This document shows positions 11,689-62,833 of a stretch of 64,000 nucleotides of DNA, piece after piece. Positions within the stretch are counted from its first letter, which is position 1; every line of letters begins with the position of its first letter. Position numbers and translations under genes: made by a program. Source of the DNA: Winogradskyella marina. GTDB lineage: Bacteria > Bacteroidota > Bacteroidia > Flavobacteriales > Flavobacteriaceae. The notes under the pieces are model-generated. The model searched no databases. It was given only the letters and a program-made list of their open reading frames with translations, and was not told where the DNA came from. Where the stretch lies: assembly GCF_015645385.1 (NCBI RefSeq), contig NZ_JADOET010000001.1, positions 310,001-374,000 of the forward strand, in the 5' to 3' direction.

Positions 11689-11700
11689 TTGAAAATTTAA

Positions 11701-11904: not shown

Positions 11905-11932
11905 TTTCTAACACATAAGCACGAACTTGCAA

Positions 11933-40402: not shown

Positions 40403-42886
40403 TTATAAAGCTTCAAAACGCACATTATCTATTGCAAAATTTAATAATACATCTGCTCCTTCAAATGCCATCCCAAATTCTGCGTCCACGAGACTAAAAT
40501 CTGGAACTCCTAATACGGAACACGGTATAGATACGGTGGTCCAGCCTTCAGAATCAAAGGCTTCACCTGTATCATTCCATGGTGCCCAATCATAAAAGGC
40601 ATCGACACCATCTGAATCATTAAATCTAACTCTAAACATGCCTGCCGTTAGTGGTTCTATGGTATTAATATCAAATTTTAATACATAACCAGATAAATTT
40701 GACCCAACCGTAGATGCTCCATGAAAAGTACTGGCATCATTTCTCCAGAATAAATCTTGCCATCCTTCACCTCCTGTTTGGAAGTTTGCTCTACCATAAG
40801 CACTACCATCTAAACTTAGTGAAACATCGTTTTCCGCCACAGCATTTCCCCACCATGGCCCATTCGCATCCCAATCAAAGAACACTAATGAAGTATCATC
40901 TATAGGATCTGGCCCTCCACATCCTGGTGTATCAAATCGTACATTATCTATTGCAAAGTTTAAGAGCACATCTGCTCCTTCGAATGCCATTCCGAACTCC
41001 GCATCAACTAAACTAAAATCTGGAACTCCTAAAACAGATAACGGAATTTCAACAGTTTCCCATCCATCAGTCGTAAAAGGTTCTCCGGTATCATTCCAAG
41101 GTGCCCAATCGTAAAACGCATCTACTCCATCTGCATCATTGAATCTAATTCTAAAAGCACCATCAGTTAATGGTTCAATGACATTTATATCGAATTTTAA
41201 TGAGAAATTACTCAAGTTACTACCCACAGCTGAAGCACCATTAAACGTTCCCGCATCATTTCTCCAAAATAAATCTTGCCAACCTACACCTCCAGTTTGG
41301 AAATTTGCTCTACCATATGAACTACCATCAATACTTAAGGCTGCCGTATTTTCTGCGGTAACATTTCCCCACCAAGACCCATTGGCATCCCAATCGAAGA
41401 ATACCATTGAAGGATCTCCTACAGGACATAATCCTCCAGCGCCTGTTTCAATTCCAAGAGCACTTAATAATCCTTCTGGGATTAAAACGCGGTTAATTTC
41501 ATGAATAACTCCGTTATTGGCACCTATATTTCCTGTGGTAATAGTAGATGGTATGGCGTCACCAAAAGAAGGTAATAATCGCGCATCGTCTCCTGATAAG
41601 TCTGCAGTAATATCGTCACCATATAGTGTTGATATCGCACCTCCATATGTTAACTGGCTAGCCATTAAACTTCCTGTATGAAGGTGATAATTTATTAAAT
41701 CGGTTAATACAGCTAATTCTTCAGGTGTATCAAAATCATCTAAAGTTTCAAAATTATTTATAGCTGCAAAAAGCCCAATAAATGCGTCGTTGTTTGGCAC
41801 AAAAGCAGTTAACTCATCCGTTGATAAGCTATTTGTTAAACTCACCTTTTCTACAGCGTCTAAAAATGTTGTAAATCCTCTATCATTACATCTTTCAACA
41901 ATGTTAAGGGTTGCACTTAAAATACTTTGAAAAACGTCTTCTGGTAATAATACTTTATCTACACCATGCACAACACCATTAATCCCCTGAATATCCGTTA
42001 AAACAATATTTGCATTATTATAAGACGTATCATCTATAACAGTTCCACTAATAGCAAATGAATCGCCTTGCATTGACGTCTGTGTTGAGCCATCAGCATC
42101 TGCAGCAAGTGTATTTGCACCTGTTACCACATGATACTGTAAGATTTGTTGTAAAACCTCCTCCGGAACATCAGATAAGCTTGTCCAACCAAACGCTCCA
42201 TTTACCTGAGCCATTAACGCTTCAAATGCAGCATTGTTTGGTGCAAACAACGTATAAGGATAATTTTCGTTTGCTGTGTTTGATATAGATAACATTTCCC
42301 CTAATCCAGCTAACTCAATTGCACTGGCAAAACTAGAATAATCCGGATTTGCGACAACATGGTCTAATACAGTTGGAGGCGTTAAAACAGCATCTACGGT
42401 ATGAAGAATGCCATTTGTTGCTCCTATATCAAAAGAATTATCGACCAATGAAGCCATACCATTAAATACTATTTCATCTTCCGTATTTGTATAAAAACTA
42501 ATATTATTCCCATCTGGACCAGTTGCCAAGGTCTTTAAATAACCTGTTTCCATGGCTCCTGTAAAATCAGCAGTAACCGTACTTAATACATGGTTTAATA
42601 AAACATTTTCTAATGCCTCTCCTGTTAATGAGCTTATGTCTGAATTACCAAATGCCGAATTATTTGGCGCAAAAACCGTATAGGTTGTTGTACTGCTTAA
42701 CGTAGAGTCTAAGCGCACATCTGCCAAAGCATCAGAAAGTAAAGATAAATTAGGACTCTCCGATATAATTTCGGTTATGTTTTTTGGGCTGCTTGATGAT
42801 TGAAACATATCATCATCATCCTTACACGAAAAAAAGCATGTAAAGCCAAAAAGCAAAGTGATATATAAAATTTTAGATACTTTCAT
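40403..42886 (-). CDS. Surface lipoprotein with three FAS1 domains and two tandem Trp-rich domains
   Basis: This 827-residue lipoprotein (lipobox Cys21, FTCFFSC, followed by an acidic KDDDD stretch that favours surface export) has three fasciclin domains at about 36-170, 173-314 and 317-470. Each has the YTVFAPNNSAF-type and NGILHTVDAVL-type motifs. Two copies of a 158-residue domain follow at 494-651 and 667-824, about 83 percent identical by my count. They are rich in Trp, Tyr and Asp (FFDWDANG-WWGN, WQDLFWRNDA, FYDWAPWNDTG) and end in a strand like those of beta-sandwich carbohydrate-binding modules. As the last gene of the susC operon it is probably a surface glycan-binding protein. Binding to mannan is inferred. 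Confidence 0.85.
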   Translation of the reverse strand: MKVSKILYITLLFGFTCFFSCKDDDDMFQSSSSPKNITEIISESPNLSLLSDALADVRLDSTLSSTTTYTVFAPNNSAFGNSDISSLTGEALENVLLNHVLSTVTADFTGAMETGYLKTLATGPDGNNISFYTNTEDEIVFNGMASLVDNSFDIGATNGILHTVDAVLTPPTVLDHVVANPDYSSFASAIELAGLGEMLSISNTANENYPYTLFAPNNAAFEALMAQVNGAFGWTSLSDVPEEVLQQILQYHVVTGANTLAADADGSTQTSMQGDSFAISGTVIDDTSYNNANIVLTDIQGINGVVHGVDKVLLPEDVFQSILSATLNIVERCNDRGFTTFLDAVEKVSLTNSLSTDELTAFVPNNDAFIGLFAAINNFETLDDFDTPEELAVLTDLINYHLHTGSLMASQLTYGGAISTLYGDDITADLSGDDARLLPSFGDAIPSTITTGNIGANNGVIHEINRVLIPEGLLSALGIETGAGGLCPVGDPSMVFFDWDANGSWWGNVTAENTAALSIDGSSYGRANFQTGGVGWQDLFWRNDAGTFNGASAVGSNLSNFSLKFDINVIEPLTDGAFRIRFNDADGVDAFYDWAPWNDTGEPFTTDGWETVEIPLSVLGVPDFSLVDAEFGMAFEGADVLLNFAIDNVRFDTPGCGGPDPIDDTSLVFFDWDANGPWWGNAVAENDVSLSLDGSAYGRANFQTGGEGWQDLFWRNDASTFHGASTVGSNLSGYVLKFDINTIEPLTAGMFRVRFNDSDGVDAFYDWAPWNDTGEAFDSEGWTTVSIPCSVLGVPDFSLVDAEFGMAFEGADVLLNFAIDNVRFEAL
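40415..41407 (-). repeat. Tandem duplication encoding the two Trp-rich domains
   Basis: Units 40934-41407 and 40415-40888 encode near-identical domains, offset by 519 bases. The final 30-plus residues are identical in both copies while the DNA differs at many third positions. The duplication is therefore not recent and the protein sequence has been kept by selection. Confidence 0.9.
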
Positions 42887-42935: not shown

Positions 42936-44021
42936 TTATAGGAAACCAAAATCATCTATATAGAAAATGTATTGTGCTAATCCTGTATTCGAAGATTCTT
43001 GAAAATCCATTCTAAATATTGTATCTGGCGCACCACCATTAGGGTAAAAATCTGACAACGGAATAACCACTTTATTCCATTCTCCAGGTATTAGATCTAT
43101 AGGTTGTACTGTTTGGGCTCCATCAAAATCATTTAAAGCAATTTGTACTTTATCTCCCGCTGAACCTGTTCCATAAACAGAAACCGTTAAGGCATCATAT
43201 TCATCAAAAGGAATATTTGGTGCTAAGAACGTAAGGCCAGACCATGCTTCTCTGACACTTTTTATTGAAAATTCACCTAATGCAACTTCGGTAGAAGCCA
43301 AATCATGAGTTCCACCCCATTCACTGGTTGACCAATCAGCATGTAAAGCATCAATAAAAATAGAATAACTAAATCCATAAGAATCCGATTGTGCCACAGC
43401 ACCTCTACTCGTCGCTAAATAAATAAACGCTTGTTCTACTCCTGATGGTACTTCTACAACAACTTCTGTTTGAGAAATAGATAAAATTGTTGCAGGTGCC
43501 TCTACTAGATTACCGTTTTCTTCAGATCCTGAAACGAAAGTAACCGAAGCTGTATCTGTAAAATCACCTCCTTGAAGAGTAACTGTTTTTACTCCATCTA
43601 CCGTTTCTTCAGTAAATCCATCAATTGATAGTAGAGAAAAATCATACTCGGTTGCACCTTTCAAATTTTCTAATCGTAGAATATTTTCTTGATCGATATA
43701 TGGCGCATCTTCTGGCACTTCCACAAACGCTATATTATCCGTTAAAAGTGCCGGATTAAAGCCTGCAGGAAAACCATTAAAGTCAATTGATATTAATGAC
43801 GCTAAATTCTCACCTCTTATAATGTACGTTCCTTCCAATACTCCCTGTGTTACAGGCACATCTTCCCTCGCCTCACTTACACTATGAATAACCGGCGGTG
43901 CTGTTGCTTCTGGAATTGAATCCTTGTGGAATTCATTTTCGCAAGACGTTAACTGAATTAAGGCTAACAGCATTAAAAAGAAAGCAGATATGTTGTTCAA
44001 TGTGACACTATTTTTTTTCAT
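42936..44021 (-). CDS. SGBP-type surface glycan-binding lipoprotein with IPT/TIG domains
   Basis: The 361-residue lipoprotein (lipobox in ALIQLTSCENEF, Cys27) has one or two IPT/TIG-like immunoglobulin domains (about 40-215). The C-terminal 140 residues are a beta-sandwich (DALTVSVYGTGSAGDKVQIAL..., ending IFYIDDFGFL) like the ligand-binding domain of SusE/SGBP-B-type proteins. It sits directly after susD, the usual place of a surface glycan-binding protein in a PUL. Its final strand resembles the ends of the tandem domains in the next gene, which suggests a related fold. Confidence 0.85.
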   Translation of the reverse strand: MKKNSVTLNNISAFFLMLLALIQLTSCENEFHKDSIPEATAPPVIHSVSEAREDVPVTQGVLEGTYIIRGENLASLISIDFNGFPAGFNPALLTDNIAFVEVPEDAPYIDQENILRLENLKGATEYDFSLLSIDGFTEETVDGVKTVTLQGGDFTDTASVTFVSGSEENGNLVEAPATILSISQTEVVVEVPSGVEQAFIYLATSRGAVAQSDSYGFSYSIFIDALHADWSTSEWGGTHDLASTEVALGEFSIKSVREAWSGLTFLAPNIPFDEYDALTVSVYGTGSAGDKVQIALNDFDGAQTVQPIDLIPGEWNKVVIPLSDFYPNGGAPDTIFRMDFQESSNTGLAQYIFYIDDFGFL

Positions 44022-44038: not shown

Positions 44039-45613
44039 TTATTCTCCAAAATTATAAGGCACTGGTGGTTGTTGAAGTGCTGGGTTATTTTGAATTTCGT
44101 TTGTAGGATATGGGAAAAGCATATCATCCATTGTAGGACTATACATCTCAGAGTTCACAGTAGGAGGAGTTGTATCATTGTTAAACGTTCCTCGTTCTGT
44201 AGTGCTTAAATAGCTCATAGCAAAAGAAGGTCCTCGTCTTACAACATCGTACCAAAACTCAAATTCAAAAGCCAACTCAATTCGTCTTTCTTGAAAAACG
44301 TCATCAACCGTAGGATTATCAATATTTTCTAAACCGGCACGTCTTCGAACTTTATTAAGAGATTCTGCTCCAAAAGAACTTGAGCCTCCACCCATAAGTG
44401 CTGCTTCTGCATTTATTAATAACAATTCACCATACCTAAGAATATACGTGTTATTTGGATAGCTCTGTTGAGCTCCACCGCCATTAGTGGCCGCATTTCC
44501 TACTACATATTTTTTTATTCCAGCATTTGTGCCTTGATGATTTATGTTCTCAGAAACGGCATAACCTCCGTTTAAGTCTCCGTAATACGAACCAGGATCC
44601 ATAATTGTGGCATAATACCGAACGTCTTGCTCTGTATCTTCATAAGCATCTTGCAAATCTAACGACGGTCCTACAGCAGACCATCCGTCTGAAAACCCAG
44701 TAACACCAGCTGGTGCAAAAAGAGATTGTATACCATTACCTTCTGCATATTGACCAGATGTTGACCATTGCAGAGCAAAAATTGATTCTGGATTGTTATC
44801 ATTAGCAGTTAAAAACAAATCGTAATAACTACCTGAAGGATCACCATCTCCTGCATCGCCTCCATACAGTTTAAACTCCCCTGAATTAATTACTTCTTGA
44901 GATAATTGAAATGCTTCTGTATAATTTTGTTCATACAAATGAATCTTAGCTAACATTGCCTTTGCTGAACCGCTAGATACTTTTGCATTTAAATCGTAAC
45001 TACCACCTCTAATTTTTTGATAACAGTGATCTATTGCAAATTGATAATCTCTTTTAATAAATTCATAGACATCAGATTCTGGGTTTCTAGGAACAACCGG
45101 TTCTAATATATATTCGTCATTATCTGCAATAATAGGAATAGAGCCAAAAATACGTACAAGATAAAAATAGGCTGTTCCACGAATAAAACGCGCTTCTCCA
45201 ATGGCATTATTAACGACATCTTGAGAAACATCTGGACTCACAAATTCTGGCAACGTATTAATAACTGAGTTTGCTTGCGCCACTACAGCATATAAAGATT
45301 CCCAAGCCTGTGTTAATGTTCCGTGTTCTCCGGTTATAGCAAAATTTGTAAAATCAGCATTTCTAGGATCCCAAGTACGTCCATTACCAGAACTTAACTC
45401 ACCAATACACCAAGACACATTAGAGATGAAATTAAACCAAGGTTTAGAATATAAGTGATTTGTTCCTGAATTAACCTGTTCTTCCGTTTGATAAAAGTCT
45501 ACTACGTTATACGAATCTTCTGGTGGTCTATCCAAAAATTCCGTAGTACATGATGGCAGAAGAAACAACACTGCCAAAGTCAGTAAAAACTTAGTTCGTA
45601 ATAAATTATTCAT
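44039..45613 (-). CDS. SusD/RagB-family glycan-binding outer-membrane lipoprotein
   Basis: SusD-like proteins form the lid of the SusC channel and bind the incoming oligosaccharide. I took the ATG at 45613 (MNNLLRTKFLL), giving 524 residues. The frame extends 9 codons further, but that would overlap the susC end. The lipobox is LFLLPSC (Cys22). SusD hallmarks are RPPEDSYN after the signal, the TPR-like helices with EARFIRGTAYFYLVRIFG, and the C-terminal ILRYGELLLINAEAAL and VRRRAGLENI segments. It is 13 bases after susC. Confidence 0.96.
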   Translation of the reverse strand: MNNLLRTKFLLTLAVLFLLPSCTTEFLDRPPEDSYNVVDFYQTEEQVNSGTNHLYSKPWFNFISNVSWCIGELSSGNGRTWDPRNADFTNFAITGEHGTLTQAWESLYAVVAQANSVINTLPEFVSPDVSQDVVNNAIGEARFIRGTAYFYLVRIFGSIPIIADNDEYILEPVVPRNPESDVYEFIKRDYQFAIDHCYQKIRGGSYDLNAKVSSGSAKAMLAKIHLYEQNYTEAFQLSQEVINSGEFKLYGGDAGDGDPSGSYYDLFLTANDNNPESIFALQWSTSGQYAEGNGIQSLFAPAGVTGFSDGWSAVGPSLDLQDAYEDTEQDVRYYATIMDPGSYYGDLNGGYAVSENINHQGTNAGIKKYVVGNAATNGGGAQQSYPNNTYILRYGELLLINAEAALMGGGSSSFGAESLNKVRRRAGLENIDNPTVDDVFQERRIELAFEFEFWYDVVRRGPSFAMSYLSTTERGTFNNDTTPPTVNSEMYSPTMDDMLFPYPTNEIQNNPALQQPPVPYNFGE

Positions 45614-45626
45614 TTTATCTTGGTTT

Positions 45627-48600
45627 TTAAAATTCAACATTGATTCCTAACGTAAATGTTCTCGGTGATGGGTAACGTCCATTATCCACACCTAATAAAA
45701 GTGCATTTTGGTTATAAGCACCTACTTCTGGATCATAACCTGAGTAGTTGGTAAATGTGTGTAGGTTTTGAATACTACCATATACTTTTAGCTTACTCAA
45801 GCCAATATCATTTGAAAACCGACTAGGTAACGTATAACCTAAAGTTACATTTTGTATTCTTAAATAAGAACCATCTTCTATATACCTATCTGATATATTA
45901 ATATTTGGTGTATCATTCCTAGCAAGCCTAGGAGAACCTGCGTTAGGATTATCAATAGACCAATAATCTAACACTGAAGGCAATTGGTTGGTGAAAGTTC
46001 TATTTCCAGCGGTTAAAGAACGACCAATGGCATTAAAAATATCATTTCCGTAGGATCCTTGCATAAACACAGACAAGTCAAAACTTTTGTAAGAGAATGA
46101 ATTTTGAAAACCAAAGGTGAAATCTGGATGCGGATCTCCTATTACCGTTCTATCATCTCCATCAATAACACCATCTGGCACGCCATTAGGACCACTTACA
46201 TCTTTATATTTTACATCTCCCAACCATGTTGAACCAAAAAGCGCATCTTCAAACGGTCTTCCAAATTGTATTGGAGCTCCATTAATATCATCTAAGGTTC
46301 TAAAAAGCCCTTCAACTTGATAGCCATAAAACAATCCTATTGGTTGCCCAACTTGGGTTAGTGTTATATTCTGATTAGAATTATCTAAAGTAAGATCTCC
46401 ATTTATTGTTAAATCTCCTAAAAGCGCATTTACTTTGTTTTTGTAATGCGAAACCGTTAAAGAAGAACTCCAATTAAAATCTTTTGCATCTGTTTTATAG
46501 CTTAACGTAACATCTATACCTGTATTTTGCATTTCCCCTAAGTTAACCCAAGGCGGAGTAATTGCTCCTGGAGAATTTCCACCCGTAATAAAATCAGTTA
46601 CTGCCAGTTGGTATAAGAAGTCTTTTGAAACTTTTTTGTAAACCTCAACGGTTGTATTTAATCTTGAATTAAATAATGTGAAGTTTAGCCCTAAATTGGT
46701 TTGTGTAGATGATTCCCAAGTTAAGTCTTCGTTTGCAAAATTTGCATATTCGAATCCTGTTCCATTTCCTGTTGAAATAGTATTTAATCGTGCTCCATAC
46801 GCAAAGTTGGGAATGTTTTGATTTCCTACTTCACCATAACCTCCGTATAGTTTTATATTTTCTATAGCAGTGAAGCCTTCCATAAAACTCTCATTAGACA
46901 ATCTCCATGCTGCCGAAACAGAAGGAAAATAACCCCATTTATTGCCTTCTGCAAATTTTGAAGAGCCATCAGCCCTAAGGGAAGCTGTAACGTTATACTT
47001 ATTATCTAATGAGTAAATTAATCTTCCAAAGTACGACTCTAAGGCTGCACTACCTTTATATTGATCTGTAAAATCATTAGCATCTCCTGTACCTAAAATT
47101 GGCACATCATTACTTACAAAATCACCATCTTGAGCGATTGTACCTTCCCAACTAGACTCTTGTACCTCGTGCCCTAACAATACCGTGAAGTTGTGAATAT
47201 CGTTAAAGGATTTATTAAAGGTTAATAAGTTCTTTACGATCCAAAAATCGGTGTTTTCATTTCTAATGTTTAAACTATTAGTTCCTCTTTCAATAGCACC
47301 ATAACTAAATGTCGGCTGAAATCTATTGCTAATATTATTTCCAAAATCACCACCTACTTCTAATCTATATGTAAAGTTTTCTGATAATTTAAACTCACTA
47401 AAAATGTTTCCTAAAACCCTGTTTCTTGTTAAGTTGTTTCTAATGCTTAACGCTTCAGCGATAGGGTTTCTTATACCAAAAGCAATTTCGTCATTGGTAA
47501 CAGGACCAGCAAACGAACCGTCTGGATTATAAACAGCAGTTGCAGGATTATTACGCAGTGAAAGCCCAATAAGACCATTTGTTGAGTTATTTAAGGTTAG
47601 GCTTTCATTTGTTCTACTCATTGTAAAACTGGCCCCAACATTAATGGACTTATTTAATTTAGCATTCACATTAGCTCTTAAGGAAATTCTATCAAAAGAA
47701 GAACCAATCACTGTTCCTTCCTGGTCCACATATCCTGAGGATAAGAAATAATTTATTCCATCGTTACCACCAGAAAAAGACACTTGATGGTTTTGCATAA
47801 TTGCATCACTAAAAATTTCTTTTTGCCAATTAGTTCCTGGCCCTAATAAACTAGGATTTAAAAACGATATACGAGGATTTAAACCATATATTTCACCTAT
47901 TTCATTCTGTAATCTTGCATAACCAGGTAAATCTAAAACTTCAATTAAATTTGTAGGTCGCTGAACGGCCAAAAACGTATTATAAGCGAGTGTTCCTTTA
48001 GTATTTTTACCTTTTTTGGTTGTAATAATTACAACACCATTTGACCCTCTTGATCCATATATTGCGGTCGCAGAAGCATCTTTTAAGATATCAATAGACT
48101 CAACATCGTTAGGGTTTAGCGCTGACAATGGACTAACACCTGTTGACCCAGAGCTCTCACCTAATCCGTTATCTGCAATAGATCTTCCACTAGTACCAGT
48201 ATTATTAGAATCTCCAGACACTGGCACACCATCTATAATATATAAAGGTTCACTAGATCCTGTAATAGTATTTACACCTCTAATTCTTACAGAAACAGCA
48301 CTACCTGGCTGACCAGAATTCTGAGTAATACTCACACCTGCTGCTCTACCTTGCATCATTTGATCAATTCCAACCTGAGGTATTGTTTCTAAGGCTTCGG
48401 TATCTACACTAGAAACCGATCCACTTAGCTGCTCTTTTCTTTGTGAGCCATAACCAATAACAACAACCTCACTCAAACCTTCAACACTTTCTACTAAGGT
48501 TACATTAATGAGTTCTTTATTGTTTACCTCAATTTCTTTAGTTGCAAATCCTACATAACTAAACACCAGCGTTGCACTCTCACTCACATTAATAACATAA

Positions 48601-48803
48601 TTACCATCAAAGTCAGATACAACTCCATTTGTAGTTCCTTTTTCTATTACAGAAACTCCAAGTAGCGTTACTCCATTAGAGTCAGATACGGTTCCTTTTA
48701 CTTGGTTTTGCGCAACAGCAAATTGTCCTACTAAAAAAAGGAGTAAGAATGAATAACAATATTTAGTGCTGCAACAAATATTTTTAAAATCGGATTTTTG
48801 CAT
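45627..48803 (-). CDS. SusC/RagA-family TonB-dependent glycan transporter
   Basis: This outer-membrane transporter of 1058 residues imports mannan-derived oligosaccharides in a TonB-dependent way. It has a signal peptide (to AVAQ, about residue 31), a carboxypeptidase-D-like N-terminal domain (about 34-112, GTVSDSNGVTLLGVSVIEKG), and a TonB-box/plug region (EVVVIGYGSQRKEQLSGSVSSV). The plug motif IRGVNTITGSSEPLYIIDG and ILKDASATAIYGSRGSNGVV are SusC signatures. The barrel ends in FTLGINVEF with the terminal aromatic residue. It pairs with the SusD downstream. Confidence 0.97.
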   Translation of the reverse strand: MQKSDFKNICCSTKYCYSFLLLFLVGQFAVAQNQVKGTVSDSNGVTLLGVSVIEKGTTNGVVSDFDGNYVINVSESATLVFSYVGFATKEIEVNNKELINVTLVESVEGLSEVVVIGYGSQRKEQLSGSVSSVDTEALETIPQVGIDQMMQGRAAGVSITQNSGQPGSAVSVRIRGVNTITGSSEPLYIIDGVPVSGDSNNTGTSGRSIADNGLGESSGSTGVSPLSALNPNDVESIDILKDASATAIYGSRGSNGVVIITTKKGKNTKGTLAYNTFLAVQRPTNLIEVLDLPGYARLQNEIGEIYGLNPRISFLNPSLLGPGTNWQKEIFSDAIMQNHQVSFSGGNDGINYFLSSGYVDQEGTVIGSSFDRISLRANVNAKLNKSINVGASFTMSRTNESLTLNNSTNGLIGLSLRNNPATAVYNPDGSFAGPVTNDEIAFGIRNPIAEALSIRNNLTRNRVLGNIFSEFKLSENFTYRLEVGGDFGNNISNRFQPTFSYGAIERGTNSLNIRNENTDFWIVKNLLTFNKSFNDIHNFTVLLGHEVQESSWEGTIAQDGDFVSNDVPILGTGDANDFTDQYKGSAALESYFGRLIYSLDNKYNVTASLRADGSSKFAEGNKWGYFPSVSAAWRLSNESFMEGFTAIENIKLYGGYGEVGNQNIPNFAYGARLNTISTGNGTGFEYANFANEDLTWESSTQTNLGLNFTLFNSRLNTTVEVYKKVSKDFLYQLAVTDFITGGNSPGAITPPWVNLGEMQNTGIDVTLSYKTDAKDFNWSSSLTVSHYKNKVNALLGDLTINGDLTLDNSNQNITLTQVGQPIGLFYGYQVEGLFRTLDDINGAPIQFGRPFEDALFGSTWLGDVKYKDVSGPNGVPDGVIDGDDRTVIGDPHPDFTFGFQNSFSYKSFDLSVFMQGSYGNDIFNAIGRSLTAGNRTFTNQLPSVLDYWSIDNPNAGSPRLARNDTPNINISDRYIEDGSYLRIQNVTLGYTLPSRFSNDIGLSKLKVYGSIQNLHTFTNYSGYDPEVGAYNQNALLLGVDNGRYPSPRTFTLGINVEF

Positions 48804-49098: not shown

Positions 49099-49977
49099 TT
49101 ATAAGATACGTTTTATACCTGAAAATTCATTTTTGTATTGCGTTGGTGTGCACTTTTTTAGCTTTTTAAACACTCTATTGAAATTTGCAATATTATTAAA
49201 CCCACAATTAAATGCAATTTCAGAAATAGTATTGTCTTTTTCTAACAACCACATAGACGCATAACCAATCCTAACATCATTAACGTAGTCTACAAAAGTT
49301 TTTCCGGTTCTTTTTTTCATAAACCTATTAAACGACACGTTGCTCATATTCACAATTTCAGAAACTTCGGATAGTGTTATTTTTTCACTGAAGTTACGCT
49401 GCACATACTCATAAACTGTTTTTATATTATCGCTATTTTCAAAGTTCTCTCTATTAACTGTGTATGTTGAAAGTAAACGTTGATTTCTTGAATTAGCCAA
49501 ATCATGAAGGATGGAAATTAATTCTAAAAAATAATCCATGCCATCCAAACGAGATACTTGCGCAATTCTATCATATAACATTGAAGCGGTTTTTTTAGAA
49601 AACAAAATACCATGAACAGATCTTTTAAACATATCTCTTATAGGTTTCATGATTCGTCTTCTTAAAAAATCTTGCGTAAATAAATTTTCATCAAATTGAA
49701 TGGTGATTTCATGAATTGATTTGCTTTTACAGTTATGAGTTATCCAACCATGATGCAAATTTGGACCGACCAAAACCAATTCAATGTCATCAATCTCTTC
49801 CATATTATCACCAACTATTCGTTTTACACCTTTTCCATTATGAATAAAATTTAATTCAAATTCAGGGTGAAAATGAATCGGAAAATCAAAATCTTCTTTC
49901 ACCCTATCAAAGACTAAAAAACTATCCTCTGGAGATAACGGAGTGATTTCTCTATGTGTGTTTTTAAGAATATTCAT
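49099..49977 (-). CDS. Cupin-AraC family transcriptional regulator (PUL regulator 1)
   Basis: The 292-residue protein has an N-terminal cupin-like sensor domain (FDFPIHFHPEFELNFI at about 31-46 carries the HFHPE-E metal/sugar-binding pattern). The C-terminal AraC DNA-binding domain has two helix-turn-helix units (LSEVSEIVNMSNVSFNRFMK, then ISEIAFNCGFNNIANFNRVFKK). It lies between susC and the divergent GH26 gene. It is therefore the likely activator of both arms in response to a mannan breakdown product. It is a close paralogue of the regulator at 61935-62816. No HTCS or ECF sigma/anti-sigma pair is present in this PUL. Confidence 0.93.
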   Translation of the reverse strand: MNILKNTHREITPLSPEDSFLVFDRVKEDFDFPIHFHPEFELNFIHNGKGVKRIVGDNMEEIDDIELVLVGPNLHHGWITHNCKSKSIHEITIQFDENLFTQDFLRRRIMKPIRDMFKRSVHGILFSKKTASMLYDRIAQVSRLDGMDYFLELISILHDLANSRNQRLLSTYTVNRENFENSDNIKTVYEYVQRNFSEKITLSEVSEIVNMSNVSFNRFMKKRTGKTFVDYVNDVRIGYASMWLLEKDNTISEIAFNCGFNNIANFNRVFKKLKKCTPTQYKNEFSGIKRIL

Positions 49978-50166
49978 AATAATGATTTATAATAGTGTAA
50001 TAAATTGATAAAATAATATCAACAATGTAAAATTGTGTTCCTTAAATTTGAAATATCTAAAATTAAAACACAAATCTTAAAGATTTGATAATTGAAGACG
50101 TAAAAATATTAATTAATTTAAAATACAGATATTCTTTTTTAAGAATACTTCAAATACACAAATTTT
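49978..50166. promoter_or_regulatory. Divergent control region between AraC regulator 1 and GH26
   Basis: This AT-rich 189-bp spacer serves two divergent transcripts. A plus-strand TAAATTTG (50043-50050) fits the -7 consensus. Two palindromes follow: CAAATCTTAAAGATTTG (50071-50087) and TATTCTTTTTTAAGAATA (50130-50147). Either could be an operator; the second is also close enough to the GH26 start to act in the mRNA leader. Confidence 0.4.
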
Positions 50167-51282
50167 ATGCTCAAGCGGATTATACCTGTACTATTAGTGT
50201 TTACGATGTTTTCTTGTAAATCAATTTATACAAGTGACTATAAAAAACCTGATTTAGTTGACAAAAACATATCAAAAAGTTCTAAATTACTGAGGAAAAA
50301 GTTATTTCTTATTTCCCAAGAAGGCTTTGCAATTGGTCATCAAGATTGTACGTCTTATGGCATGGGTTGGAACAAATCGGATTATATTGATGTTGAAAAA
50401 AGCGATGTTTTTGATATGATTGAAGACCAGCCTTCGGTTTACGGCTTTGATATTGGTTGGATAGAACATGGCTCTGATGTAAATCTCGATGGTGTTCCTT
50501 TTGATTTAATGCGAAATCTTATAATAGAAGCTCATAAAAAAGGCGGAATCATTACGGTTAGTTGGCACCTGGACAACCCAACATCTGGAGGCGACTCTTG
50601 GGATACAACACCTTCTGTTGCTAATATTTTAGAAGGTGGTTCGCACAGAGAAAAATACGAGCTATGGGTCGGAAGGGTTGCTAGTTTTTTTAAATCATTA
50701 GAGCACAACAACACACAGATTCCTGTAATATTTAGACCTTTTCATGAAATGAATGGCTCTTGGTTTTGGTGGGGAAAAGATAATTGTAATGTTACAGATT
50801 ATAAAAAGTTGTGGCATCAGACTGTTCATCTACTACGAGACAAACATAAGGTTAACAACTTATTATACACCTACTCACCAAACAAATTAAATCCTGATGA
50901 TAATTATATGACGTATTATCCTGGTGACGATTATGTAGATATTTTAGGGTCTGACATTTACGATTTCAACGATGCTGAAGAATATATTACTTCGGTTGTA
51001 AACGATTTAGCTATTGTAAAATCTATTGCTACAAAAAAAGACAAACTATTTGCCTTTACAGAAACTGGATTAGAGAAAATTCCGACTAAAAACTGGTTTA
51101 CTGAAGTGCTTTATCCTAATATAAAAGATTCGGGAATTAGTTGGATTTTATTCTGGAGAAACCATGACGAAACACACCATTATATGCCCTTTAAAGGCCA
51201 TGTTAACGAGCCTGATTTCAAGGATTTTAAAGCACTACCAGAAACATTGTTCTTAAAAGACATTAACCAGATTAATCCTTAA
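50167..51282 (+). CDS. GH26 beta-mannanase, lipoprotein
   Basis: GH26 enzymes cut beta-1,4-mannan with retention. The 371-residue lipoprotein (lipobox Cys17, FTMFSC) has a full catalytic domain. The acid/base is Glu194 in IFRPFHEMNGSWFWWG and the nucleophile is Glu299 in FAFTETG. These are the two signature motifs of the family. It may be an endo-mannanase or a mannobiose-releasing exo-enzyme like the B. fragilis enzyme coupled to an epimerase and GH130. The linked symporter, GH130 and epimerase genes make release of mannobiose likely. It is the first gene of the plus-strand arm. Confidence 0.94.
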   Translation: MLKRIIPVLLVFTMFSCKSIYTSDYKKPDLVDKNISKSSKLLRKKLFLISQEGFAIGHQDCTSYGMGWNKSDYIDVEKSDVFDMIEDQPSVYGFDIGWIEHGSDVNLDGVPFDLMRNLIIEAHKKGGIITVSWHLDNPTSGGDSWDTTPSVANILEGGSHREKYELWVGRVASFFKSLEHNNTQIPVIFRPFHEMNGSWFWWGKDNCNVTDYKKLWHQTVHLLRDKHKVNNLLYTYSPNKLNPDDNYMTYYPGDDYVDILGSDIYDFNDAEEYITSVVNDLAIVKSIATKKDKLFAFTETGLEKIPTKNWFTEVLYPNIKDSGISWILFWRNHDETHHYMPFKGHVNEPDFKDFKALPETLFLKDINQINP

Positions 51283-51287
51283 TTTAC

Positions 51288-53123
51288 ATGGAGCTACTAC
51301 ATACAGTCGATATTTTAATAATCGCTTTATACTTAGTCACAATCATTGTTATTGGTTTAGTGCTTCGAAAAAAAGCACAACAAAGTAAAGATGATTATTT
51401 ATTGGGTGGAAAAAGAATTCCTTGGTATTTATTAGGCCTTTCTAATGCCTCTGGTATGTTTGATATTTCTGGTACTATTTGGCTCGTTACACTCATGTTT
51501 GTTTACGGTATAAAAAGTGCTTGGGTGCCTTGGCTATGGCCTGTTTTCAACCAGATATTTTTAATGGTTTATTTGTCTAAATGGTTACGACGATCTAATG
51601 CTACAACTGGCGCCGAATGGATTGGTACACGTTTCGGTTTTGGTAATGGAGCCAAATTATCGCACATCATTGTTGTTGTTTTTGCATTAGTGGTATGTTT
51701 AGGTTATTTAGCCTATGGTTTTATTGGCTTAGGAAAGTTCGTAGAAATTTTTATCCCATGGGAATTTGCCAGTAACTACATTCCATTTGCTATTCCTCCA
51801 GAATATGTACCTCATTTTTATGGTACCATTTTCACATTGTTTGCCGTATTCTATTCGTTATTAGGTGGTATGTCTGGTATTGTTTGGGCAGATGTTGTAC
51901 AGTTTGCAATTATGACCATTTCTGCCATAGTTATAGGCTATTTAGGCTGGCAAGCCGTTGGTGAATTTGGAGTTAACGTTCCTAAAGATTGGATGAATCC
52001 ATTTACAGGTGGATTAAATTTAGACTGGAGCAACATCATACCAGAAGTCACTGATAAAATTAAAAGCGATGGTTATGGCGTATTCACCTACTTCCTATTT
52101 ATGATGCTTTTTAAAGGGGTTCTCGTTAGTGTGGCAGGACCTGCACCAACATACGATATGCAGAAAATCCTATCCACCAAAACCCCTGCAGAAGCTTCAA
52201 AAATGAGTGGATTTGTTTCTGTGATTTTAATGCCAATTCGCTATTTAATGATTGCTGGTTTTGCTGCATTAGCATTAATTTATTATGACCAATTAGATTT
52301 ATTAAATGCTGCAGGTCATATAGATTTTGAACTCATTCTACCAACAGCAATTAAAGAATTTGTTCCGGTAGGTTTATTAGGCTTATTACTAGCCGGATTA
52401 ATTGCCGCTTTTATGTCCACATTTGCTGGCACATTAAACGCTGCGCAAGCATATTTGGTTAACGATATTTATTTAAAATACACCAAACCAAATGCGTCTC
52501 AAAATCAAGTTAAAAACATGAATTATATCACAGGAATTACTGTGGTCGTTATCAGTATTGTACTTGGCTTTTTTGCCGAAAACGTAAATGCGATATTAAA
52601 TATAATCGTTTCAGTTCTATACGGAAGTTATGTTGGCGCCAACATTTTAAAATGGCATTGGTGGAGATTTAATGGTGAAGGGTTTTTCTGGGGCATGGTC
52701 GCAGGACTAGTGGCAGCAGCTATTGTACCACATTTATTTCCAGATGTGAATGCTTTATACTTATTTCCAGTATTGCTTATTGTTTCATTAATTGGAAGTG
52801 TTATCGGAACGTATTCTGCACCACCAACCGAAGCTAAAGTATTGAAAGATTTTTATAAAAACGTACGGCCTTGGGGATTTTGGAAACCGATTCATGATCA
52901 ACTTGCAGCTGAAAACCCAAATTTCAAAAAGAATACAGATTTCGGAAAAGACATGTTTAATGTTGCCATAGGAATCATCGCCCAAACCGCATTAGTAATT
53001 TTACCAATGTATCTTATTTTTAGACAAGAAACACCAATCTACATTTCGTTAGTCGTTTTAGTTATATGCAGTATTCTGTTGAAGAAATTCTGGTGGAATA
53101 ATTTGAACCAAAAACTAGACTAA
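51288..53123 (+). CDS. Sodium:solute symporter (SSS family), probable mannobiose/mannoside importer
   Basis: The 611-residue inner-membrane protein has about 13-14 hydrophobic helices. It shows the SSS motifs DDYLLGGKRIPWYLLGLSN near 34 and GLLGLLLAGLIAAFMSTFAGTLNAAQAYLVND in the centre, typical of sugar-type SSS transporters. It starts 5 bases after the GH26 stop and is followed by the cytoplasmic GH130 and epimerase. The inferred cargo is therefore mannobiose or a short mannoside, moved with sodium. Substrate specificity cannot be read from sequence. Confidence 0.92.
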   Translation: MELLHTVDILIIALYLVTIIVIGLVLRKKAQQSKDDYLLGGKRIPWYLLGLSNASGMFDISGTIWLVTLMFVYGIKSAWVPWLWPVFNQIFLMVYLSKWLRRSNATTGAEWIGTRFGFGNGAKLSHIIVVVFALVVCLGYLAYGFIGLGKFVEIFIPWEFASNYIPFAIPPEYVPHFYGTIFTLFAVFYSLLGGMSGIVWADVVQFAIMTISAIVIGYLGWQAVGEFGVNVPKDWMNPFTGGLNLDWSNIIPEVTDKIKSDGYGVFTYFLFMMLFKGVLVSVAGPAPTYDMQKILSTKTPAEASKMSGFVSVILMPIRYLMIAGFAALALIYYDQLDLLNAAGHIDFELILPTAIKEFVPVGLLGLLLAGLIAAFMSTFAGTLNAAQAYLVNDIYLKYTKPNASQNQVKNMNYITGITVVVISIVLGFFAENVNAILNIIVSVLYGSYVGANILKWHWWRFNGEGFFWGMVAGLVAAAIVPHLFPDVNALYLFPVLLIVSLIGSVIGTYSAPPTEAKVLKDFYKNVRPWGFWKPIHDQLAAENPNFKKNTDFGKDMFNVAIGIIAQTALVILPMYLIFRQETPIYISLVVLVICSILLKKFWWNNLNQKLD

Positions 53124-53147
53124 CCTGATAATATTCAAAATATAATT

Positions 53148-54314
53148 ATGAGTAGCAATACTATAGATAAAGCAAAAAAGCATTATACAAAAACAGTGAA
53201 TAGAAAAAACAAACCGCTATCACTTTCTAATGGAATTTATACGAGATATAAACACCCAATCATTACAACAAGCCACATACCAGTGCATTGGCGGTATGAC
53301 TTAAACCCTGAAACCAATCCTAATGCCTTAGAACGTATTGGGTTTAACGCCACATTTAATGCAGGTGCTTTAAAATGGAAGGGCAAATACATTATTTGCG
53401 TTCGTGTAGAAGGTAACGACCGAAAATCATTTTTTGCCATTGCTGAAAGTACTAATGGCATTGATGGATTTGAATTTTGGGACAAACCATGTATTATTCC
53501 ACAAACTGAGGAACCAGACACCAATGTGTATGATATGAGATTAACACAACATGAAGACGGCTGGATTTACGGCATCTTTTGCACAGAACGCAAAGATCCG
53601 AATGCTGCTGCCGAAGACACTAGTTCTGCTATTGCTAATGCAGGCATTGTAAGATCTAAAGACCTTATAAATTGGGAACGCCTTCCTGATTTAATTTCAA
53701 CAACAGGGCAACAACGCAATGTGGTATTACATCCTGAATTTGTTGATGGAAAATATGCTGTTTACACACGTCCACAAGATGGATTTATTAGTGTAGGTAA
53801 TGGTGGCGGAATTGGTTTAGGCTTCATTGATAACATGATGAATCCTGAGGTTCAAAATGAAAAAATAATCAACAACAAAGTGTATCATACTGTATTTGAA
53901 CTCAAAAACGGACTTGGTCCAGCACCAATAAAAACAGAACAAGGATGGCTACACTTAGCGCATGGAGTGAGAAACACAGCTGCAGGTTTACGCTATACTT
54001 TGTACATGTTTATGACCGATCTTAACGACATTTCAAAAGTTACACATCAACCAGCAGGTCATTTTATGGCACCACAACACAAAGAACGCATTGGTGATGT
54101 CTCAAATGTTTTATTCACAAATGGATGGATTGAAGATAACGACGGCACCATTTACATCTATTACGCGTCTTCGGATACGAGAATGCACGTGGCAGTTTCA
54201 ACAAAAGAAAAATTGGTGGATTATGTTACAAACTCACCAAAAGATGGATACACTTCAGCAAGTTCTGTAAATACAATTATTAAATTAATTGATAACAATC
54301 AAGGATTATACTAA
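53148..54314 (+). CDS. GH130 4-O-beta-D-mannosyl-D-glucose phosphorylase
   Basis: The enzyme phosphorolyses mannosyl-beta-1,4-glucose to mannose 1-phosphate and glucose. The 388-residue protein has no signal peptide and is cytoplasmic. It has the five-bladed propeller motifs NATFNAGALKWKGKYIICVRVEG (67-89) and NVYDMRLT (126-133). Asp129 in the latter lines up, from memory, with the catalytic acid of the Bacteroides fragilis enzyme. Length and motifs fit subfamily GH130_1 better than the mannan or N-glycan subfamilies. Its stop overlaps the epimerase ATG (TAATG), matching the two-step epimerase/phosphorylase pathway. Confidence 0.92.
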   Translation: MSSNTIDKAKKHYTKTVNRKNKPLSLSNGIYTRYKHPIITTSHIPVHWRYDLNPETNPNALERIGFNATFNAGALKWKGKYIICVRVEGNDRKSFFAIAESTNGIDGFEFWDKPCIIPQTEEPDTNVYDMRLTQHEDGWIYGIFCTERKDPNAAAEDTSSAIANAGIVRSKDLINWERLPDLISTTGQQRNVVLHPEFVDGKYAVYTRPQDGFISVGNGGGIGLGFIDNMMNPEVQNEKIINNKVYHTVFELKNGLGPAPIKTEQGWLHLAHGVRNTAAGLRYTLYMFMTDLNDISKVTHQPAGHFMAPQHKERIGDVSNVLFTNGWIEDNDGTIYIYYASSDTRMHVAVSTKEKLVDYVTNSPKDGYTSASSVNTIIKLIDNNQGLY

Positions 54315-55495
54315 TGTCTGAAAGCTATCCACAACTTAAAACAGAATGTCAAAATGAATTAATCGACATCGTAAGCTATTGGTCCAAAAACACAGTAGAC
54401 GCTGATCATGGTGGATTTTTAGGTCAGATTGATCATTTTAATGTACCGGTTCCAAAAGCAAACAAAGGGATTATTTTAAACACACGAATTCTTTGGAGTT
54501 TTTCGGCAGCATCAAATCATTTTAACACACAAGTCTACAAAGCTATTTGCGATAGAGCTTACCATTATCTCAAAGCATTTTTTAACGACCTTACATCAAA
54601 AGGTGTGTATTGGGAATTAGATTATTTAGGTAACCCTATCAACAAACGCAAACAGGTTTATGCGCAAGCTTTTGCTATTTATGCCTTATCAGAATACTAT
54701 ACGTTTTCTAAAGATGAAGCCGCAAAAAATTGGGCTATTGAACTCTTCGACCTCATAGAAAAACATGCCAAATGTGAACAAACAGGCTACTTAGATGCTT
54801 TTAATGACGATTGGACACCAATTGAAGATATGCGACTAAGTGAAAAGGATATGAATGCTGAAAAAACAATGAATACGCATCTTCACATAATGGAAGCGTA
54901 TACATCCTTACTCAAAATATATGACAATGAAAATTTGAAGGCATCCTTAAAATCATTAGTAAACATCTTTCAAAACAAGTTTCTAAACAGCAATAATCAT
55001 TACGATTTATTTTTCGATAAAAACTGGAACTTACTAAGCAATACCATTTCTTACGGTCATGATATTGAAACCGCTTGGTTAGTTATAGAAGCAACAAAAG
55101 CACTTAATAATGATGAGTTGTTAAACGAAGTAAAAACCACTGCTCTTAAAGTTGCTAATACATTTTTAAATGAAGCAATTGATGCTGAGGGTGGAGTTAT
55201 AAACGAAAAAAACCTCAGTACAAATCATACAGATACTGATAGACATTGGTGGCCACAAGTTGAAGCCTTAGTTGGCTTAAAGTATGCTTACAGCATTAAT
55301 GAAGACGAAAAATACAATGATAACGCTATAAAAATATGGGAGTTTACAAAAAAACATATTATCGACCATAACCATGGAGAATGGCATTTTAGAGTTGATA
55401 AAAATGGAAAACCATACACTAAAGAAGATAAAGTAAGTATGTGGAAAGCACCTTATCATACGACACGCGCATTTATCATTTTAAATGAAGATTAA
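54314..55495 (+). CDS. AGE-family epimerase, probable mannobiose/cellobiose 2-epimerase
   Basis: The 393-residue cytoplasmic protein is an (alpha/alpha)6-barrel of the N-acylglucosamine/cellobiose 2-epimerase family. It has the histidine-bearing motifs THLHIMEAYTSL (about 194), YGHDIETAWL (about 248), DRHWWPQVEALVG (about 311) and YHTTRAF near the C-terminus. In this setting it should turn beta-1,4-mannobiose into mannosylglucose, the substrate of the preceding GH130. The two genes share an ATG/stop overlap. Cellobiose epimerisation is the alternative activity known for the family. Confidence 0.92.
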   Translation: MSESYPQLKTECQNELIDIVSYWSKNTVDADHGGFLGQIDHFNVPVPKANKGIILNTRILWSFSAASNHFNTQVYKAICDRAYHYLKAFFNDLTSKGVYWELDYLGNPINKRKQVYAQAFAIYALSEYYTFSKDEAAKNWAIELFDLIEKHAKCEQTGYLDAFNDDWTPIEDMRLSEKDMNAEKTMNTHLHIMEAYTSLLKIYDNENLKASLKSLVNIFQNKFLNSNNHYDLFFDKNWNLLSNTISYGHDIETAWLVIEATKALNNDELLNEVKTTALKVANTFLNEAIDAEGGVINEKNLSTNHTDTDRHWWPQVEALVGLKYAYSINEDEKYNDNAIKIWEFTKKHIIDHNHGEWHFRVDKNGKPYTKEDKVSMWKAPYHTTRAFIILNED

Positions 55496-55497
55496 AA

Positions 55498-57036
55498 ATG
55501 AAAAAACGACTACTAATCAGTGCTTTTATAGGGGTCTTCATTTTTGGGTGTTCCAAAGATGACCCTGAATTTGAAACTGATATAATTGTTAGTATTTCTG
55601 CAAGTATTGGTTTTGCTTCGGAACCAGATAATCATGGCGAATTCACCATTTCGTTATCCGAACCATCTCGCACAGACACCACAATTGATTATACTGTTAG
55701 CGGAACCGCAACTAATGGAGTAGATTATCAAACTATAACAAACACTATTACCGTTCCCGCAAATAGCATTAGTAACACTATAGCTATAACCGTAATCGAT
55801 GACACCATTCAGGAAGGTGACGAAACAGTAATTATAACTTTAAACACAACCAGTAATCCGAATACAACTATAGGCAGCTCAAATTCTGCTACTGTTACTA
55901 TTTCTGAACTACCTGAAGATTTTATATTATCACCAGAAGACGCGTATTTATATATGGTAAACCCGAATGCAACACCAGAAACAATTGCGCTGTTTTATAA
56001 TTTAAAAGCGCTTTCTAAGACCAATTTTGTAGTGGGTCAGCACGATGCTTTTCATAGTTTTTATAACGATAATGAAGGTGAATCTGATATGATGAAAACA
56101 ACAGGGAGCGATCCAGGATTACTAGGTTCAGATTTTATGTTTATCACCGACGACAATAATGATGGCACTACATCAAACTGGTACCAGCAACAAGAACAAA
56201 TTATAACATCTAATGCAATAGAAGCTTACAATAAAGGTATGATTAACACCTTTTGTTGGCATATGAGAGAACCTTATGAAGGTGATTATTTTTACGCTAG
56301 TGAAATGACAGAATTCCAAAGAAACAATGCACTCGTTAGCATTTTGCCAGATGGAGCAAATCACGATTACTACAAACAAAAACTTCAAAAAATAGCCGAA
56401 GTCGCCAATAGCATGGTTGGTAATGATGGCAATTTAGTGCCTTTTATTTTTAGACCTTTTCATGAGTTTGATGGTGACTGGTTTTGGTGGGGAAAAGCGT
56501 ATTGTTCACCACAACAATTCAAGGAATTATGGCAATTTACAGTCACGTATTTAAGAGACACATTACAGGTTAACAATATCTTGTTTGCCTTTTCTCCAGA
56601 TAGCAGTTTTTTCTCAGCTGCCGAATATCTCAACAGATATCCAGGCGATGCTTACGTTGACATTCTTGGCATGGATAATTACACAGACTTTAATAACCAA
56701 GGACAAGCAGCTTTAGAAAGTGCCAACGAGAAACTTCAAATTATTACAGAGCTCGCCAAAGACCGCGTTAAAATTGCGGCATTAACAGAATCTGCTTATA
56801 TCGTTACACCGGGTGAAAACAATCCAATTTCAGGGTTTTATGCTAATCATATGTATAACGCCTTATCGAATAACAATGTAGAAATAGGTTATATGATGTT
56901 TTGGTCAAATACTACAAACACGTACTGCACACCACCACCAGGACAACCAAGTACAGCAGACTTTTTAGAATTTGTAGACAAACCGAGATCAATCTTACAA
57001 AACGAATTACCTACGATGTACACATTACCTCAATAA
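55498..57036 (+). CDS. GH26 beta-mannanase with N-terminal Calx-beta domain, lipoprotein
   Basis: The second GH26 of the locus is a 512-residue lipoprotein (lipobox Cys18, FIFGCSKDD; the KDD after it favours surface export). It has a Calx-beta domain at about 30-137 (YTVSGTATNGVDYQTITNT, IQEGDETVIITL) and a GH26 domain from about 145. The acid/base is Glu323 in FRPFHEFDGDWFWWG and the nucleophile is Glu431 in ALTESAY. It lacks obvious close similarity to the first GH26 outside the motifs, so the two likely have different modes, one on the surface and one in the periplasm. It starts 2 bases after the epimerase gene. Confidence 0.93.
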   Translation: MKKRLLISAFIGVFIFGCSKDDPEFETDIIVSISASIGFASEPDNHGEFTISLSEPSRTDTTIDYTVSGTATNGVDYQTITNTITVPANSISNTIAITVIDDTIQEGDETVIITLNTTSNPNTTIGSSNSATVTISELPEDFILSPEDAYLYMVNPNATPETIALFYNLKALSKTNFVVGQHDAFHSFYNDNEGESDMMKTTGSDPGLLGSDFMFITDDNNDGTTSNWYQQQEQIITSNAIEAYNKGMINTFCWHMREPYEGDYFYASEMTEFQRNNALVSILPDGANHDYYKQKLQKIAEVANSMVGNDGNLVPFIFRPFHEFDGDWFWWGKAYCSPQQFKELWQFTVTYLRDTLQVNNILFAFSPDSSFFSAAEYLNRYPGDAYVDILGMDNYTDFNNQGQAALESANEKLQIITELAKDRVKIAALTESAYIVTPGENNPISGFYANHMYNALSNNNVEIGYMMFWSNTTNTYCTPPPGQPSTADFLEFVDKPRSILQNELPTMYTLPQ

Positions 57037-57044
57037 CCCTTATA

Positions 57045-58364
57045 ATGAAAAACTTCAAGCTCATAGTAACAAGTCTTTGCATTACTGTATTATTTTCTTG
57101 TAAAAGTAAAAAGTACGTATTTAATGAAACACCATCGCCATCTGATTTTATAACGGTTAATGGTATGCAATTTCAAAAAGGAGATGAACCCTATTATTTT
57201 ATTGGAGCCAATTATTGGTATGGTCCATTACTAGGAGCTAAAAAAAGTGGCGATCGCGAACGTCTTATCAAAGAACTCGACCTAATGAAATCTGTTGGTA
57301 TAGATAATTTACGCATTTTAGTCGGTGCAGAAGGTGATGGAGGAGACTCTAGAGTTCATCCAGCTTTACAACCCGAACAAGGTGTCTATAATGACGATTT
57401 ATTGGATGGTTTAGATTTTTTATTAGCCGAAATGCGACAGCGAGACATGTATGCTGTTTTATATCTTAATAACAATTGGATTTGGTCTGGAGGTATGTCT
57501 GAATATTTAAAATGGAATGGCTATGGTGACGTTCCTAATCCGTTTTTAAAAACGTACTCTTGGGATGATTACATGAACTACACCAAACAATTTCACAGTT
57601 GCGAGCCTTGTAAAAATGCTTTCTACACACATATAAAATACATTATTGGTCGCACAAATTCTTACACTAAAATTAAATATACAGACGATCCTACCATTAT
57701 GTCTTGGCAGGTGGCAAATGAACCTCGCGTGTTAATGACACCTCATCATGAAGATGCTTTTGCCGAATGGTTAAATAAAACTGTAAGCATTATAAAAGAA
57801 CTCGCTCCTCATCAATTAATCTCAACGGGTACTGAAGGAAAACATGGTTTTTTACAAGATATAAAGATGTATGAAAGACTACATAGCAACCAAAATATCG
57901 ATTATTTAACCATGCATATGTGGCCAAAAAATTGGGGTTGGTATGATATTGATAACGAAAAAGAATCTACCCACGTTTCCATTTTAAATGCAACAAACTA
58001 CATGAATGAACATGAAAAAATTGCTGAAAAATTGAACAAACCTATTGTGATGTCTGAATTTGGTTTTCCAAGAGAAAAAGAAAGCCTATCACTCGACGCA
58101 TCTATAGAAAACAGAAATACATTTTACAAAGCTATTTTTGAAACCATCCAAAAAAGTAAAACCGATCAAAATGCTGTTGCTGGTTTAAATTTTTGGGGAT
58201 TTGCTGGCTATGCTATAACAGACCCTAACAATGGAAAGTGGAAACATGGTGATGATTTCACAGGAGATCCACCACAAGAGCCACAAGGATTAAATTCTGT
58301 TTTCGCATCAGATGTTTCAACATTAGAGTTAATTAAGCGATTTAATTTATTGTTAACTGAATAA
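57045..58364 (+). CDS. GH5 beta-mannanase (GH5_7-like), lipoprotein
   Basis: The 439-residue protein has a lipobox (Cys19, LFSC) and a GH5 (beta/alpha)8 domain. The acid/base is Glu226 in QVANEPR and the nucleophile is Glu338 in VMSEFGFPRE. The STGTEGKHG stretch near 260 and the long loops are of the type seen in subfamily 7 endo-mannanases. The open frame begins at 56901, but the first 48 codons overlap the previous gene in another frame. The ATG at 57045 gives a proper lipoprotein signal and was chosen. It is the last gene of the plus-strand arm. Confidence 0.92.
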   Translation: MKNFKLIVTSLCITVLFSCKSKKYVFNETPSPSDFITVNGMQFQKGDEPYYFIGANYWYGPLLGAKKSGDRERLIKELDLMKSVGIDNLRILVGAEGDGGDSRVHPALQPEQGVYNDDLLDGLDFLLAEMRQRDMYAVLYLNNNWIWSGGMSEYLKWNGYGDVPNPFLKTYSWDDYMNYTKQFHSCEPCKNAFYTHIKYIIGRTNSYTKIKYTDDPTIMSWQVANEPRVLMTPHHEDAFAEWLNKTVSIIKELAPHQLISTGTEGKHGFLQDIKMYERLHSNQNIDYLTMHMWPKNWGWYDIDNEKESTHVSILNATNYMNEHEKIAEKLNKPIVMSEFGFPREKESLSLDASIENRNTFYKAIFETIQKSKTDQNAVAGLNFWGFAGYAITDPNNGKWKHGDDFTGDPPQEPQGLNSVFASDVSTLELIKRFNLLLTE

Positions 58365-58404
58365 TTAATCAATACCTAAAAAACTTTATAAAGAATTACT
58401 TTAT

Positions 58405-60690: not shown

Positions 60691-60725
60691 TGTTATACTT
60701 TTTTTAGTTGCAAAGCTCGATGCAA

Positions 60726-61826: not shown

Positions 61827-61934
61827 TAAAACAAAATTGTTAACACATGTAAAGTTAGTGCAAACATCTTTTTTTTTCTAAGCGTAATTTTTCAAATCTT
61901 AATACTATTTACTATTTAAAACTGCTAACTAAAA

Positions 61935-62816: not shown

Positions 62817-62833
62817 CGCAGCTCTATTTTAAA

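Follow-up and report, generated by a model that had tools for sequence, protein, structure and literature searches.

The closest described systems are the surface glycan-binding proteins B (SGBP-B) of Bacteroides ovatus (BACOVA_02650; 5e7g and 5e7h) and Bacteroides uniformis (7k44), with which the protein considered here shares a predicted β-sandwich, its C-terminal position, and the vicinity of susC and susD. In Cytophaga hutchinsonii, the SGBP-B-like outer-membrane protein CHU_1279 likewise has two CBM-like domains; however, it binds cellulose, mainly via one of them, and FAS1 is not mentioned in the accessible part of the source (PMC12016534). A further point of comparison is CBM112, which the available part of PMC13357471 presents as a β-mannan-binding β-sandwich with two key surface tryptophans; in mannan PULs, it can form the terminal domain of SGBPs whose spacers are Ig folds. 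Its likeness to the domain studied here is one of description. At the level of the gene cluster, marine β-mannan loci carry SusC/D, GH26, GH130, an epimerase, and GH5, and a GH27 α-galactosidase is reported to be conserved in them, according to the accessible sections of PMC9860051.

The analyzed window, a 64,000-nucleotide stretch of the Winogradskyella marina genome, contains on its minus strand an open reading frame (40403..42886) for a lipoprotein of 827 amino acids, in which Pfam detected three FAS1 and two SGBP_B_XBD domains behind a signal peptide. The N-terminal signal (42824..42886, minus strand), read from the sequence, ends in the lipobox residue Cys21, which was invariant in all 13 aligned full-length proteins. 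It is followed by KDDDD, an acidic tract that we take to be of the surface-lipoprotein type. The FAS1 domains (PF02469) are located on the same strand at 42377..42751 (67.3 bits), 41942..42346 (84.7 bits), and 41477..41878 (69.9 bits). When the whole protein was compared with the PDB using phmmer, the 22 sequences obtained were all of fasciclin type, judging by their names and matched ranges, and periostin and TGFBI were the best solved relatives. The C-terminal part consists of SGBP_B_XBD copy 1 (40931..41407), a linker of 14 residues (40889..40930), and copy 2 (40412..40888), all on the minus strand, with the stop codon two residues further on. The preliminary description had placed a tandem of units of about 158 residues at 40415-41407; in agreement with this, it was found at 40412-41407, where it ends the FAS1 lipoprotein.

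The same description named no family for the tandem and proposed a new carbohydrate-binding module, to be abandoned if the domain strongly matched a known CBM family. It did match a known family strongly, although a Pfam one, PF18329, whose full name is "Surface glycan-binding protein B xyloglucan binding domain." The whole protein scored 136.6 bits, and each copy alone passed the curated cut-off of 26.4 bits (76.2 bits for copy 1 and 70.2 bits for copy 2), the single-copy matches spanning profile positions 7-184 of 186. No second Pfam family matched the single copies at an E limit of 10, a search in which the HMMER filters drop most matches above approximately 0.1. All 28 copies in the alignment A1 matched PF18329 and no other family at E 0.001. 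Judged by these profile matches, the tandem consists of a sugar-binding domain of known family, present twice. Of the earlier proposal, the carbohydrate-binding β-sandwich stood, on the grounds of family, fold, and locus, whereas its novelty did not. A CBM family that is entirely new and has no catalogued relative would agree with the NCBIfam search, in which nothing exceeded the cut-offs and the matches lay far below them, and with the weak similarity to solved SGBP-B structures in direct sequence comparison. In a search with the profile built from the 28 copies, the E values were 7.7e-4 for the SGBP-B-like structure 3orj and 0.54 for 7k44, both weak, and hhalign of this profile (Neff 1.6) against the 5E7H domain gave a probability of 2.1%. 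However, the scores of 70-76 bits per copy and the agreement of all 28 copies make a nameless or wholly new family highly improbable, and it was rejected. Since the direct links to the solved SGBP-B are weak, it is the Pfam profile and the fold that connect the domain with the solved members. PF18329 was not found by name in the open-access literature searched.

The structure prediction called for earlier yielded a β-sandwich for copy 2 (pLDDT 75, pTM 0.69), for which the top Foldseek match was the SGBP-B of B. uniformis (7k44, E 3.3e-5). Modules of CBM30 ranked after it, CBM11 modules were also present, and the highest query TM among the best 50 Foldseek matches listed, 0.66, belonged to 5e7h (BACOVA_02650). 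With VIA-align, four SGBP-B-like chains (3orj, 7k44, 5e7h, and 6d2y) obtained Z values of 9.8-10.1, and a xanthanase domain (10.2), a virus turret protein, a lyase domain, agarase domains, CBM11, and CBM30 scored equally well. Thus, the modeled β-sandwich fits domain D of SGBP-B but is not diagnostic of SGBP-B. The model of the full-length protein (pLDDT 63, pTM 0.37) does not predict the geometry of rod and head. The aromatic residues invariant in all 28 copies include W6, W13, Y31, W43, W48, F72, Y99, W104, and W116 (numbering of copy 2). We presume that W330, Y363, and W364 form the xyloglucan-binding platform of 5E7H. In the alignment with this structure, to which hhalign assigned a probability of approximately 2%, W330 falls on W13 in both copies, Y363 on a glycine, and W364 on W43, although a shift of a gap also allows W48.

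The FAS1 gene is the last of a same-strand cluster of susC, susD, and a gene for a TIG-type surface glycan-binding protein. The SusC-like TonB-dependent transporter (45627..48803; PF07715/PF13715), the SusD-like protein (44039..45640; PF07980/PF14322), and the TIG protein adjoining susD (42936..44021; PF01833, 21.3 bits against a cut-off of 20.9) are all encoded on the minus strand, and 49 bases separate the TIG gene from the FAS1 gene. The lipoprotein is therefore encoded, as an SGBP-B is, downstream of susC/susD in a PUL; however, the Ig-like or TIG spacers that precede the C-terminal module of an SGBP-B are absent, and three FAS1 domains are present instead. This replacement marks the protein as an SGBP-B-like variant rather than an SGBP-B in the strict sense. 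It further differs from BACOVA_02650 and 7k44 in having two copies of the terminal domain, in the shorter length of this domain (159 amino acids), and in its location in a mannan rather than a xyloglucan locus. Judging from its domain composition, the FAS1-XBD2 protein is a new variant of the PUL surface glycan-binding proteins, in which a known domain is set on an unusual fasciclin stalk. Neither fasciclin- or FAS1-based SGBPs nor fasciclin proteins of PULs were found in the open-access literature searched, among the matches listed for the broader queries.

Upstream of susC, an AraC-type regulator is encoded on the minus strand (49099..49977; PF12833), followed on the plus strand by GH26 (50167..51282; PF02156), a sodium:solute symporter of the SSF type (51288..53123; PF00474), a GH130 phosphorylase (53148..54314; PF04041), a sugar 2-epimerase (54314..55495; PF07221), and a second GH26 with a Calx-beta domain (55498..57036; PF02156, PF03160). 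Both GH26 matches of the genome fall in this locus. The next plus-strand gene (57045..58364) encodes a putative GH5-mannanase-like lipoprotein according to a reading of the sequence; its Pfam match to GH42 is below the threshold (18.7 bits, cut-off 21), and it possibly belongs to a GH5 branch that the Pfam model misses. The minus strand then carries GH3 (58405..60690; PF00933/PF01915), a CE2-type acetylesterase (60726..61826; PF17996, PF13472), a second AraC-type regulator (61935..62816; PF12833), and GH5 (62834..63853; PF00150). The SusC/D pair, GH26, GH130, and epimerase that characterize β-mannan PULs in the accessible part of PMC9860051 are thus all present, and the β-mannan locus of Muricauda sp. 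described there has SusC/D, GH26s, GH130, an epimerase, and a symporter, as does the window. The two differ in GH27, which is conserved in the former; a search of the W. marina genome with Melibiase_2 (PF16499), the α-galactosidase family covered, gave no match. The words fasciclin, FAS1, SGBP, and glycan-binding do not occur in the main text of PMC9860051. Glucomannan or galactomannan as the ligand fits this gene content; since Melibiase_2 was not matched, the evidence leans toward (gluco)mannan rather than galactomannan. There is accordingly little sign, in the gene content, of removal of galactose side chains by the Melibiase_2 family in this genome.

We consider it unlikely that the modules bind the β-1,4-glucan of a composite wall (cellulose, mixed-linkage glucan, or xyloglucan) and not mannan. 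The Pfam name speaks for such a ligand, as do the joint role of SGBP-A and SGBP-B of B. ovatus in xyloglucan capture, described in the accessible part of PMC4967831, the binding of cellulose by CHU_1279 (PMC12016534, in the part available), and the position of PF18329 proteins next to a gene read by eye as GH10 in two loci (L003, L004). However, GH31, GH95, and GH29 were absent among the window proteins scanned (49099-63853), and the XBD subtype found here accompanies GH26 in two bacterial families.

A scan of genome contigs revealed 25 loci, 12 of which (L031-L042) encode proteins with three FAS1 and two XBD domains. Their hosts are Winogradskyella, Mangrovimonas, Christiangramia, Aureibaculum, Saonia, Meridianimaribacter, Allomuricauda, Flaviramulus, and uncultured flavobacteria; in Allomuricauda (two loci, L040 and L041), the FAS1-XBD2 protein is part of a locus of the β-mannan type. 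SusC, SusD, the TIG protein, GH26, and the symporter were encoded beside the FAS1-XBD2 gene in all 12 loci, and the order of susC/susD followed by the SGBP gene was likewise kept in 12/12. The 10 other FAS1 loci (L045-L054), which served as a control, contained no queried mannan-locus protein at E<=1e-6; L055, a piece of 3 kb, was left out of the flank comparison. Four loci picked by their TIG protein (L111-L114) had SusC/D and mannan-locus genes, and no FAS1 match was found within the fetched stretches. In L110, L115, and L116, GH26 was not found within 19 kb, the stretch ending close to the operon in each case. PF18329 matched in 23 of the 249 sampled genomes of the family, with 12 matches above the cut-off, and two copies within one frame of 829-856 amino acids occurred in 7/249. 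With the A1 profile, matches were obtained in 5 of the 68 genomes of the genus, each with two copies, and in 15/395 genomes of the phylum, where only the window genome and G398 had values better than E 1e-40. In L003, the gene at 2242-3687, which follows a PF18329 SGBP, has by eye a GH10-like start and then two near-identical binding-like repeats.

Comparison of the two copies in the window demonstrated that 130 of the 158 residues were identical in an ungapped alignment (82%, close to the 83 percent estimated initially), as were 360 of the 474 bases (76%). Over 159 codons, the third positions agreed in 55%, and dN and dS (NG86) were 0.147 and 1.45, respectively, a ratio of approximately 0.1; at the 45 fourfold-degenerate sites of shared residues, agreement was 38%. 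Since the copies are spaced by 519 bases and the longest period of Tandem Repeats Finder is 500, the empty output of this tool is uninformative. The preliminary description had also reported that more than 30 terminal residues are identical while their codons differ, and had attributed this to selection on the protein sequence. The final 35 residues proved to be the same in both copies, with 15 of the 35 codons and 17/105 bases changed, and the identity of this stretch despite the codon changes therefore bears out selection on the protein sequence. On these substitution patterns, the tandem of the window was duplicated long ago and has been kept by strong purifying selection.

The C-terminal residue was D in all 14 first copies and E in all 14 second copies, which suggests a single ancient duplication behind all the tandems. 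The tree of the copies (30 rows, with L026 omitted as an apparent duplicate of L042) was more complex. The first and second copies of the window, L031, and L032 fell into separate clades (98/94 and 100/96), and copy 2 of L033 was placed elsewhere. Copies from the same genome were sisters in L042 (100/100), L028 (97/97), L034 (82/97), and L038 (82/78), and the four copies of L040 and L041 formed one clade (100/99). In several lineages, the copies within one protein were thus more alike than orthologues; for L042, the identity was 96% within the protein versus 68% to copy 1 of the window. Recent gene conversion was not supported, because agreement between copies at fourfold sites was only 32-68% across proteins and the synonymous sites are too diverged. 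Older conversion or parallel selection may have caused the likeness within proteins.

The relatives also differed in the combination of stalk and binding head. In G398, a genome from another family of the same class, a single XBD that is 53% identical to copy 2 ends a TIG-repeat protein of 710 amino acids (PF18329, 92.5 bits; TIG, 80.9 bits), whose gene neighbors are a second PF18329 protein, GH26, GH5, and SusC/SusD. The SusC-like and SusD-like sequences of this genome lie in one frame of 1628 amino acids (L080:12528-17414), either a fusion or a sequencing error. Fasciclin domains occur in adhesion proteins, a point to which the solved relatives periostin and TGFBI lend weight, and a combination of FAS1 with XBD could in principle tether the bacterium to the walls of algae or plants, serving attachment and not feeding; two modules in tandem would also provide avidity for insoluble walls. 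Such an adhesin is, however, rather improbable, given that the gene ends a susC-susD-SGBP operon, company kept in all 12 loci, and that a close relative of the XBD in G398 is borne by a TIG-based protein.

The FAS1 scaffold was found, in turn, with other heads. In L043, L044, L109 (from G177), and L110 (from G143), it was 41-54% identical to that of the window; L043 and L044, near duplicates with 738/766 identical residues, shared 54% in the FAS1 part but had a different C-terminal tandem. In L043, this alternative tandem of binding-like domains on the FAS1 scaffold is encoded at 11465-12286. In all four proteins, the tandem is built of domains akin to the one that ends the neighboring TIG protein, and the proteins occupy the same operon position as FAS1-XBD2. 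The domains of L043 scored 83 and 103 against the window TIG-protein domain, where the maxima of 300 shuffles were 64 and 56, versus 37 and 28 against XBD copy 1, within the range of the shuffles. The tandems of L109 and L110 matched the TIG-domain profile at E 3e-14 to 2e-27; the L043 copies are among the rows of this profile, whereas L109 and L110 are outside it. The TIG-protein domain itself (42936..43367, minus strand) had no Pfam match in the window member and is CBM8-like by profile, and its family of 15 members had no good Pfam match. The best matches of single members were Big_3_5 (E 0.0048), PROCT (0.027), and an oxygenase family (0.044), in addition to four weak CIA30 matches (best 0.055) and PF21253, a mannanase galactose-binding-like family (0.082). 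Against the PDB, the profile matched CBM8 of Dictyostelium (7t7y) at E 1e-4. It may be this domain, and not the XBD tandem, that represents an uncatalogued binding module in the locus.

The occurrence of the same stalk with different heads, and of a similar head on a different stalk, makes scaffold and binding head look exchangeable in the sequences compared. A more general reading, to which we give somewhat better than even chances, is that flavobacterial β-mannan loci have a second, FAS1-based class of SGBPs, with a conserved three-FAS1 stalk whose heads, either an XBD pair or a CBM8-like pair, are exchanged at the same operon position. In this scheme, the XBD subtype would be a β-mannan-specific branch within a family whose name has so far referred to xyloglucan, and the TIG protein would end in an uncatalogued CBM.

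For the window protein, the tandem is quite probably a pair of PF18329 glycan-binding modules of a β-mannan-associated subtype, which tip a surface lipoprotein with a three-FAS1 spacer and would capture β-(gluco)mannan, the lipoprotein most likely acting as the second SGBP of the locus. The acylated N-terminus, indicated by the lipobox, would anchor the protein in the outer membrane after export to the surface, and the FAS1 rod would keep both modules away from the membrane. An exposed aromatic platform on each module may stack on the β-1,4-linked mannan or glucomannan chain, and two modules in series would raise the avidity. The held chain could then be cut by GH26 and GH5 and imported by SusC/SusD, which are represented here by the neighboring genes.

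If this is true, a Pfam family named for xyloglucan would be widened to mannan, and the Pfam name would be an unsafe ground for annotating its members as "xyloglucan binding." The role of the fasciclin lipoprotein in marine mannan loci would also be explained. In addition, proteins with the same stalk and different heads would provide a natural series for studying the division of labor between spacer and binding head in a complex for polysaccharide uptake.
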